Of a stretch of DNA of 64,000 bases, positions 2,031 to 52,123 are shown piece after piece. The notes under the pieces were generated by a model, which saw only the letters and a program-made list of their open reading frames with translations, had not been told where the DNA came from and did not search any database. Source of the stretch: Roseicyclus persicicus. GTDB lineage: Bacteria; Pseudomonadota; Alphaproteobacteria; Rhodobacterales; Rhodobacteraceae. Position 1 is the first letter of the stretch. Every line of letters begins with the position of its first letter. A program made the translations under genes and the position numbers. The stretch lies in contig NZ_JAAZQQ010000004.1 of assembly GCF_012395815.1 (NCBI RefSeq), positions 124,001 to 188,000 of the forward strand. The letters are read 5' to 3'.

Positions 2031-2828
2031 ATGCTGCGCCCGCTCCGTTCCCTCCTCGGCCGCCGAGGCCCCGAGACCCCGGCCGCCCCCGCCGCGCCGG
2101 ACCTGCCGCGGCCGGCCTCGACCACCTATGTGGTCGGCGACCTGCACGGGCGCGCGGACCTCCTGGAGCTGATGCTGGAGCTGATCGACGGGCATATCGG
2201 CGGCACCGGCAGTGCCGATCCGCAGCTGGTCTTCGTGGGCGACCTGGTGGACCACGGCCCCGACAGCGCGGGCGTCGTCGCGCGCCTGCAGGAGCTGACG
2301 CGGGATTTCCCGGACAACGTGACCTGCCTGATGGGCAACCACGAGCGCATGATGCTCGACGTGCTGAACGACCCCGTCGCCCGCGGGCCGCGCTGGCTGC
2401 GGGAGGGGGGTGGCGCGACGCTGGCGAGCTACGGCATCCCGACCGGGGCGCTGGAGGCCGCCGCCCCGGCGAGGGCCTGGCGCGAGATGGCCGCGGGGCT
2501 GGACGCGGCGCTTGGCCCCGACACCCGCGACTGGCTGGAATCGCGGCCGCTGAGCTGGCGCTCGGGCAACCTCTGGGCGGTCCATGCCGGCGCCGACCCG
2601 GCGCGGCCGATGGCGGAGCAGACCGCGCGGGTGCTGCTCTGGGGACATCCCGAGTTCGGCAGCGCGCCGCGCGGCGATGACGCCTGGGTCGCCCATGGCC
2701 ACGTGGTGCTGGAGGCGCCGGTCTTTGCCGAGGGGCGCATCGGGGTGGACACCGGGGCCTGGTCGACCGGGCGGCTGACCGCGGTGGCGATCCGGCCCGA
2801 CGGCGGCCACGCCTTCCTGCAGACCTGA
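2031..2828 (+). CDS. PPP-family metallophosphoesterase (Ser/Thr phosphatase / ApaH-like)
   Basis: 265-residue cytoplasmic calcineurin-like phosphoesterase. The metal-site motifs are in order: GDLHG at 36-40, GDLVDHG at 70-76, GNHE at 102-105, then the later histidine motifs VHAG (about 185) and AHGH (about 225). This is the bacterial PrpA/ApaH-type arrangement, which uses two metal ions to hydrolyse phosphoproteins or dinucleotide polyphosphates. The usual GDxVDRG motif reads DHG here, so the phosphate-contacting Arg is replaced by His. It starts at ATG 2031, 60 nt after the permease stop, with no strong Shine-Dalgarno sequence. It ends just before the palindrome array and is convergent with mnhG. 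Physiological substrate not deducible. Confidence 0.88.
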   Translation: MLRPLRSLLGRRGPETPAAPAAPDLPRPASTTYVVGDLHGRADLLELMLELIDGHIGGTGSADPQLVFVGDLVDHGPDSAGVVARLQELTRDFPDNVTCLMGNHERMMLDVLNDPVARGPRWLREGGGATLASYGIPTGALEAAAPARAWREMAAGLDAALGPDTRDWLESRPLSWRSGNLWAVHAGADPARPMAEQTARVLLWGHPEFGSAPRGDDAWVAHGHVVLEAPVFAEGRIGVDTGAWSTGRLTAVAIRPDGGHAFLQT

Positions 2829-2835
2829 CGCGGCG

Positions 2836-2946
2836 GCACGTCCTTGCAAGGACGTGCGCAGTCCCTTGCAAGGGACTGCCCGCGATTTTGCAAAATCGCG
2901 GGCGGCGCCTTGCAAGGCGCCGGCAAGGCTCTTGCAAGAGCCTTGC
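2836..2946. repeat. Five abutting perfect palindromes with TTGCAA cores
   Basis: Five perfect inverted repeats lie end to end between two convergent stop codons: 2836-2857 (arm GCACGTCCTTG), 2858-2879 (arm GCAGTCCCTTG), 2878-2903 (arm GCCCGCGATTTTG), 2903-2922 (arm CGGCGCCTTG) and 2923-2946 (arm GCAAGGCTCTTG). All are centred on TTGCAA; four share CTTGCAAG, while the flanking arms differ. Each would fold as a tight hairpin in RNA from either strand. The array begins 7 nt after the phosphatase stop and ends 2 nt before the mnhG stop. A bidirectional terminator or RNA-stability role is inferred. No T-run follows. Confidence 0.95.
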
Positions 2947-2948
2947 GC

Positions 2949-3278
2949 TCAGCGGTGGAGCTTTTCCTCCGCCCCCTCCTCGATCGTGGTGTTCCACAGG
3001 GGCACGCCCTGCCGGAACGCGGCGCGGCCGATCATGTGGGCGGCCACCGGCGCGGTCACCAGCAGGAACAGGATCGCCGCGACCGCCCGGGTGATCGTGG
3101 CGGTGTCGCCGAAATAGACCGCGCCCGCGGCGAGGATCAGCCCCGAGCCCAGCGTCCCCGCCTTGGTCGAGGCGTGCATCCGGATCAGCACGTCGGGAAG
3201 CCGCAGTATGCCCAGCCCCGCGACGAAGCAGAAGAAGCCGCCCAGCAGCACCAACGCCGCCATGATCCACTCAGCCAT
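2949..3278 (-). CDS. mnhG: Mrp-type Na+/H+ antiporter subunit G
   Basis: 109-residue integral membrane protein, the last gene of the seven-gene Mrp/Mnh cation:proton antiporter operon. The hydrophobic pattern (three helices, about 5-25, 40-62, 66-88) and the segment RLPDVLIRMHASTKAGTLG are typical of MnhG/PhaG. The start ATG at 3278 overlaps the end of mnhF by 8 nt, which implies translational coupling. MnhG is a small scaffold subunit of the hetero-oligomeric complex that exports Na+ or K+ in exchange for protons. The length matches the family (about 100-120). Its stop codon lies 2 nt from the palindrome array. Confidence 0.95.
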   Translation of the reverse strand: MAEWIMAALVLLGGFFCFVAGLGILRLPDVLIRMHASTKAGTLGSGLILAAGAVYFGDTATITRAVAAILFLLVTAPVAAHMIGRAAFRQGVPLWNTTIEEGAEEKLHR

Positions 3279-52014: not shown

Positions 52015-52122
52015 GCGTTTTCCTCGAGGAAAACGCGCGGGAAACCTCGAGGTTTCCCGCGCGGAAAACGGCTGTTTTCCGTCACGCGAAACTGCAGTTT
52101 CGCGCTCCGGGCCAAGGCCCGG
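52015..52122. repeat. Second array of five abutting palindromes
   Basis: It starts on the first base after the ATPase stop and ends one base before the Lrp-gene stop. Units: 52015-52036 (perfect, arm GCGTTTTCCTC), 52035-52062 (perfect, arm GCGCGGGAAACCTC), 52062-52081 (8-bp arms CGGAAAAC, loop GGCT), 52085-52104 (perfect, arm CGCGAAACTG), 52107-52122 (arms CCGGGCC, centre AA). Two share a CCTCGAGG centre. The first two overlap by two bases. Bidirectional terminator or RNA-stability function is inferred. Confidence 0.93.
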
Positions 52123-52123
52123 T

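Follow-up and report, generated by a model that had tools for sequence, protein, structure and literature searches.

A palindrome array between convergent genes

The gap between two convergent genes at 2829-2948 of the window (the whole stretch analysed, 64,000 nucleotides, C5:124001-188000 of the 3.71-Mb, 10-contig Roseicyclus persicicus genome) raises the question of what a run of abutting palindromes with one common centre does behind two genes that face each other. An earlier note on this DNA had described five perfect palindromes of 20-26 nt, all centred on TTGCAA, at 2836-2946, and a palindrome scan confirms them at exactly these positions: unit 1 (2836-2857, arms GGACGT, 22 bp), unit 2 (2858-2879, arms GGGACT, 22 bp), unit 3 (2878-2903, arms AATCGC, 26 bp), unit 4 (2903-2922, arms GGCGCC, 20 bp) and unit 5 (2923-2946, arms GAGCCT, 24 bp), none of them assigned to a strand. 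To this description we add that the cores start at 2844, 2866, 2888, 2910 and 2932, an exact 22-bp period. The array had been said to fill the whole space between the two stop codons; it does nearly fill the 120-bp gap, but 7 nt (2829-2835) separate it from the stop codon of the left gene and 2 nt (2947-2948) from that of the right gene. Both genes are calls of our own purpose-written codon-usage script. The left one (2031-2828, forward strand) we take to encode a metallophosphatase-like protein, and the right one (2949-3278, reverse strand), for which relatives were found by search, presumably encodes an MnhG-like cation antiporter subunit.

The array stands out from its surroundings. TTGCAA occurs six times in the whole window, and five of these occurrences are the array cores. 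Palindromes of 20 bp or longer number nine in the window, whereas 60 third-order Markov copies averaged 0.5 and never exceeded 2, and two palindromes of at least 16 bp lay within 12 bp of each other in only 3 of the 60 copies, even with no shared centre required. Folded as RNA, the array gives five hairpins, each with a UGCA tip on a stem of 8-10 pairs (folding z = -8.6), and none of 200 shuffles was as stable.

Arrays behind genes throughout the genome

The window array is one of many. Two TTGCAA cores stand 6-36 nt apart 87 times in the R. persicicus genome (86 in a second count) and never in the reversed control, with at least one of the first 50 of the 87 pairs (C1:511801) unlike a hairpin pair. 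In 864 kb of unselected sequence (C1 1-400 kb, C3 400-800 kb and the window), 40 of the 56 TTGCAA occurrences are flanked by arms that pair at five positions or more, and none of these 40 hairpins is solitary, each lying at most 26 bp from another. We read 31 arrays of two to five units, 111 units in all, without an arm filter; 11 came from the unselected sequence and 20 from stretches picked for sequence or pattern matches, and the array places C1:568618 and C1:919680 were left out. Nineteen arrays are convergent and 12 tandem, none is divergent or intragenic, and all 31 lie 3′ of a gene. Among gaps of at least 60 bp in the unselected sequence, a TTGCAA array is present in 9 of the 65 between convergent genes, in 1 of the 264 between tandem genes and in none of the 125 between divergent genes (p = 1.4e-7); the earlier note had allowed that such arrays might be no commoner than expected, and this strong enrichment in convergent gaps answers it.

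The same regularities hold for 92 arrays from five genomes, none of them divergent. Of 337 units, 329 have TTGCAA as their core, and the eight with a variant core were accepted only where none of the six arm pairs was broken. The first palindrome base follows the stop codon at a median distance of 7 nt and a mode of 5, figures that come from the 139 of 148 measured gene ends falling between -10 and 60 nt. Neighbouring cores (n = 245) are spaced by 22 bp in 156 cases, 23 in 70, 21 in 9 and 24 in 6, so that the idea of a core repeated at fixed spacing is borne out, with a spacing that is only loosely fixed. Three of the 92 arrays overlap a called frame at its 3′ end, all at one orthologous junction (L241:6109, L315:2650 and L327:2623, in G295, G300 and G303), where the reading frame looks as if it runs into the hairpins.

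Selection on hairpin pairing

Pairing within the units is close to perfect. All 666 of the inner arm pairs (six per unit) in the 111 R. persicicus units are Watson-Crick, and mismatches start only at positions 7 and 8. Across 90 distinct units from filtered arrays, 530 of 540 arm cells are paired, whereas shuffles gave 234 on average and 276 at most. Orthologous arrays allow changes to be followed. They form 25 groups with matching flanks, 18 of which include R. persicicus; one matching flank could suffice, the groups with G309 being the weakest, and the array filter used (two units with 5 of 6 pairs) drops at least one array (G295, L238:2182). Units were paired by similarity, and junctions of unequal length were excluded from the letter counts. 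Between R. persicicus and G295, 245 of 300 orthologous arm pairs are the same, 52 have changed on both sides and are still paired, none has changed on both sides and become unpaired, and three have changed on one side. The junction letters between units are 45% different, and 11 orthologous junctions differ in length. The 52 double-sided against 3 one-sided changes constitute unusually clean evidence for selection on 3′-end hairpins.

Closer comparisons add the time course. G295 and G303 differ by four one-sided and no double-sided arm changes, and G295 and G300 by six one-sided and eight double-sided ones; a change in one arm thus seems either to be lost or to be answered later in the opposite arm. 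Between close species the arms changed at 4 of 456 sites and the junctions at 17 of 123 (p = 4e-9), and two further close pairs gave 3/336 against 15/80 (p = 3e-9) and 22/636 against 39/158 (p = 4e-15). These sequence comparisons show that the hairpins are under strong purifying selection, with changes in the arms being compensated. Two of the options that the earlier note had left side by side are thereby separated: selection on hairpins is borne out, since conservation covers the loop and the arms, changes in the arms are compensatory and the junctions drift, and a process that generates palindromes without selection is contradicted by the arm and junction rates of the first close pair.

Origin of the window array

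At the junction orthologous to the window array, ten relatives (G303, G295, G300, G297, G296, G298, G299, L028, L036 and L044) have an array-free gap of 4-21 bp, compared with 120 bp in the window; of the remaining genus genomes, four were unreadable there and one gave no match. Occupied and empty versions of the site, which are looked for in a mobile element, are thus both present. In a three-protein tree R. persicicus is nested among branches that do not have this copy, and one gain is therefore the simplest account. The window array is, to judge from these junctions, a recent gain.

Its best match elsewhere is another array of the same genome, C7:228420-228513 (86% over 93 nt). Orthologues of this C7 array exist in G295 and G303. 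Its four units correspond in the alignment to window units 2-5, the last of them being identical to unit 5, and this suggests that an older array may have been copied into a short gap to give the window array. The arms had been called unrelated and the array not copy-based; this is not supported, since arms recur between arrays as well. The 111 R. persicicus units carry 52 distinct arms, GGCTCT appearing 14 times, and combinations of neighbouring arms recur between arrays 23 times, compared with 7.4 on average and at most 28 under the null (p about 0.001), which suggests copying. We infer that the array has spread by the copying of an existing one. Unit 3 is one base longer on each arm than its C7 counterpart, a symmetric change of length. 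In G295, two hybrid units (L238:2182, with two mismatches, and L239:6673) combine left and right arms of different unit types and look like deletions between recombined cores.

Other sites were less readily compared. At the array C1:121447, five genus members (G297, G299, G301, G304 and G306) match unbroken but 36-43 bp shorter and are probably without the array as far as the alignments go, the other genomes being rearranged there; at C1:317940 only one flank is common in the genus. Of the 92 arrays, 72 fall into orthologue groups. The other 20 cannot be taken as absent from the relatives, in which the sequence read lay mainly around arrays. As to a mobiliser, the Y1/RAYT transposase domain (PF01797) was found in none of 13 genus genomes and in 5 of 14 control genomes, so a Y1 transposase is rejected in this role. 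No target duplication was visible by eye at the window insertion, the one site inspected.

Distribution in relatives and arrays with other centres

Within the genus, core pairs number 86 in R. persicicus, 64 in G295, 60 in G300 and 65 in G303, and 1-5 in nine other genomes, so in these nine the function of the arrays would be dispensable or met otherwise. One or two loci were read in each of these nine array-poor genomes; eight had no array there, and G306, with only five core pairs, had a complete four-unit TTGCAA array at L185:1490-1590. By a stricter pattern, Roseibacterium sp. SDUM158016 (G309) has 12 pairs. Across the Rhodobacteraceae, sampled at one genome per genus, TTGCAA pairs occur in 212 of 295 genomes, and counts outside R. 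persicicus range from 0 to 18, often above the reversed control (0-4); these are matches, not confirmed arrays. The stricter pattern matched in three of nine family members, and all five loci read were true palindrome pairs or quartets. True pairs or quartets in other genera, some mixing TTCGAA and TTGCAA centres, were found in G025, G035, G186 and Rhodosalinus. G025 has three four-unit arrays with the centre order TTCGAA, TTGCAA, TTGCAA, TTCGAA (L192:1468-1564 and L198:1469-1564 among them) and a fourth with the order TTCGAA, TTCGAA, TTGCAA, TTCGAA.

Several searches came back empty. The mnhG-relative loci of 80 records had no TTGCAA pair in the stretch covered, and the stretches read in G269, G187, G200 and G093, where our script called no genes in the first three and few in the last, had no palindrome cluster; G269 has a palindrome pair at another place (L206). 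None of the 80 matches listed from viral contigs had palindromic arms on both cores, and plasmid and phage records gave no match.

A second array type, which we call dialect B, has GGAAAAC-type arms and the centres CTGCAG, CTCGAG, CCCGGG, CGCGCG or CGTACG, and it too lies behind genes. The window holds one such array at 52015-52104, without strand assignment, in the convergent gap 52015-52123 (centres CTCGAG, CTCGAG and CTGCAG). The motif GGAAAACNNNNGTTTTCC has 55 copies in the R. persicicus genome and is present in 17 of the 295 genomes, R. persicicus included. When clusters of at least two palindromes of at least 16 bp are counted in the unselected 864 kb regardless of centre, 24 are found, 16 of them convergent, 7 tandem, none divergent and one intragenic, the last being GC-rich and overlapping. 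The 160 kb of G298 contain two dialect B arrays, and both have orthologous places in R. persicicus that also hold dialect B arrays, so dialect B is the older in the genus. The Roseobacter-labelled L043 (HKCCD6576-2) has a dialect B pair at L043:4335-4378, at the very gene junction where the window has its TTGCAA array; this dialect B pair seems to have been acquired independently. At C1 79026-79077, a convergent gap contains a pair of palindromes that are centred on TCTAGA and have AT-rich arms; seen once, this pair is possibly a further dialect.

Function and alternative explanations

How would such an array act? Given its anatomy, its placement 3′ of genes at many genomic places with enrichment in convergent gaps, the purifying selection and compensatory change, and the recent gain, we give about an even chance to the reading that the window array is a single copy from a dispersed, clade-specific family whose hairpin arrays act in both directions at 3′ ends, terminating transcription or protecting mRNA. 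The placement behind stop codons, the absence from divergent gaps, the preference for convergent gaps and the selection on pairing together point to transcript 3′ ends as the target, and we count the dialect B pair at the orthologous gene junction of L043 toward this reading. Each unit, as a short perfect palindrome with a UGCA tip, would fold alike in RNA from either strand; because the tip is self-complementary and the arms are perfect, the hairpin is identical on both strands, as two converging transcripts need. Two to five units would be packed behind a stop codon at about 22-nt spacing, and in a convergent gap one array could serve both transcripts, ending or protecting both mRNA 3′ ends. 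The hairpin cluster may act by termination without a U-tract, or as a barrier to 3′ exonucleases. RNA as the working form, and termination or 3′-end protection as the outcome, are what we infer from this arrangement.

In tandem gaps the array would act on the upstream message only. The next start codon follows 10-31 nt after the array in 4 of the 12 tandem arrays of R. persicicus, which leaves little room for a promoter, and these arrays are therefore probably inside operons. Full termination would be impossible there, so partial termination or protection of the upstream message is more likely. Among 768 arm pairs of tandem arrays there are three mismatches, only one of them G-U. The near-absence of G-U pairs, which a single RNA strand would tolerate in such arrays, hints at a constraint at the level of DNA or of both strands: a one-strand RNA role does not explain it, and there may be a DNA-level role, or template-switch correction in addition to selection on RNA.

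Could the arrays instead be mobile? We consider it unlikely that they are a non-autonomous palindromic element that inserts just behind stop codons, with the hairpins serving for enzyme recognition and any host use secondary. Such an element would account for the empty junctions in ten relatives with one gain on the tree, for the alignment of window units with a C7 array that has G295 and G303 orthologues, for hairpins that occur only in arrays and for the single four-unit array of array-poor G306, and the accessible parts of PMC2670323 and PMC2800124 regard the short palindromes of organelles as selfish. It would have to do so with no Y1/RAYT enzyme in the 13 genus genomes, no target duplication by eye at the one insertion and no match in plasmid or phage records, and with 72 of 92 arrays in orthologue groups, albeit among relatives read mainly at array places; moreover, the strong purifying selection would be needless for selfish copies. 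We would also entertain, as a tentative and rather doubtful proposal, a structure-inherited spreading element, in which whole arrays would copy themselves, with no RAYT enzyme, into gaps that immediately follow stop codons; the host would then retain them as 3′-end elements working in both directions, their sequence would drift by paired changes only, and lineages would have dialects of their own. In the Rhodobacterales these dialects would be TTGCAA, TTCGAA mixed with TTGCAA, and GGAAAAC..GTTTTCC.

A site read at the level of DNA is quite unlikely. Here a protein such as a nucleoid protein or topoisomerase would bind CTTGCAAG every two helical turns or so between convergent genes, or the palindromes would be extruded as cruciforms. 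The core spacing of 22-23 bp in 226 of 245 cases, the self-complementarity of the conserved core, the perfect pairing, from which G-U is nearly absent in tandem arrays as well, and the preference for convergent gaps are all consistent with this. A binding site, however, needs no complementarity between arms of free sequence; the spacing is sometimes 22 and sometimes 23, and R. persicicus and G295 have orthologous junctions of unequal length; and the placement follows stop codons rather than convergence only, 12 of the 31 arrays being tandem.

We think it very improbable that template switching during replication, that is, quasipalindrome correction, keeps the palindromes perfect while they have no function. 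Correction of this kind would explain the scarcity of G-U and the double-sided changes, as well as the symmetric one-base extension of unit 3 and the hybrid units that resemble deletions between cores. Without selection, however, the arms should diverge like the junctions, and they do so far less (4/456 against 17/123); the placement 3′ of genes is left unexplained; and the four one-sided changes between G295 and G303, with no double-sided ones, mean that correction is not instant. As the sole cause, template switching is largely refuted by the arm and junction rates.

Finally, a convergent gap with strong hairpins might suggest two ordinary intrinsic terminators facing each other, but this is hardly credible, since no terminator-like site with a U-tract was found on either strand at 2600-3200 and the feature consists of five units of the same geometry with one common core, belonging to a dispersed family. 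Nor are there T runs longer than 3 downstream of 33 tandem arrays and L241, and canonical face-to-face intrinsic terminators are ruled out by the missing U-tract.

On the preferred reading, as bidirectional 3′-end hairpin arrays, these elements amount to a natural experiment in many replicates, with the same tip on different stems, at known gene junctions and with an empty site in relatives. They allow one to test how face-to-face transcripts end without U-tracts, and whether a hairpin array spreads without a known transposase.

Comparison with known systems

REP, BIME and REPIN elements are short, dispersed palindromes that occur in clusters, for the most part downstream of genes and between convergent ones. 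REP elements conserve the sequence of the stem and travel with RAYT (Y1 transposase) enzymes. The extragenic, mostly-behind-gene placement is seen in all 31 R. persicicus arrays read, but the TTGCAA arrays fix the centre and vary the stems by paired changes, with 52 distinct arms in 111 units, and no Y1 transposase accompanies them in the 13 genus genomes. PMC1525189 deals with elements of this class.

Other systems share one trait or another. As described in the portion available of PMC2670323, the organellar repeats of Volvox are dispersed intergenic short hairpins with a common loop sequence, like the TTGCAA arrays, but they belong to an organelle genome and their units are nested into one another. 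The sponge elements of PMC2800124, again from the part accessible, are dispersed organellar hairpins that keep their stems and vary their loops, opposite to the arrays described here. Those parts of the two papers describe no fixed period or placement behind stop codons for these repeats; related organellar work, as cited there, concerns the double-hairpin or palindromic repeats of Allomyces. A CRISPR array would consist of identical direct repeats separated by unrelated, non-palindromic spacers; it is rejected, as the units all share nothing but the six bases of the core and are palindromic in their remaining sequence too. In Rfam 15 at E up to 10, 13 weak matches were obtained, all below the gathering threshold, and the open-licence papers searched describe no repeat family that covers the TTGCAA arrays; a described family of this kind, which the earlier note had named as a check on its reading, was therefore found in neither source.

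Intrinsic (Rho-independent) terminators, too, place stable hairpins directly behind genes. The TTGCAA arrays differ from them in having no U-tract, in having two to five units and in lying, in some cases, probably inside operons. Nearest are the cluster-hairpin terminators of Gupta and Pal 2021 (PMC8355165), where, in the portion of that paper available, clusters without U-tracts are reported to be effective in 13 genomes. That class comprises several short hairpins (stems of 2-10 bp, less than 15 nt apart) near a stop codon with no need of a U-tract, and the TTGCAA arrays likewise have at least two hairpins with stems of 2-10 bp within 15 nt of each other near a stop. As described in that portion, the class is defined by position and folding, and a shared core, perfect palindromy, a 22-nt period and a dispersed family are not part of it. 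The shared-core, dispersed form was thus not found described, and the TTGCAA arrays belong with the known 3′-end hairpin clusters.
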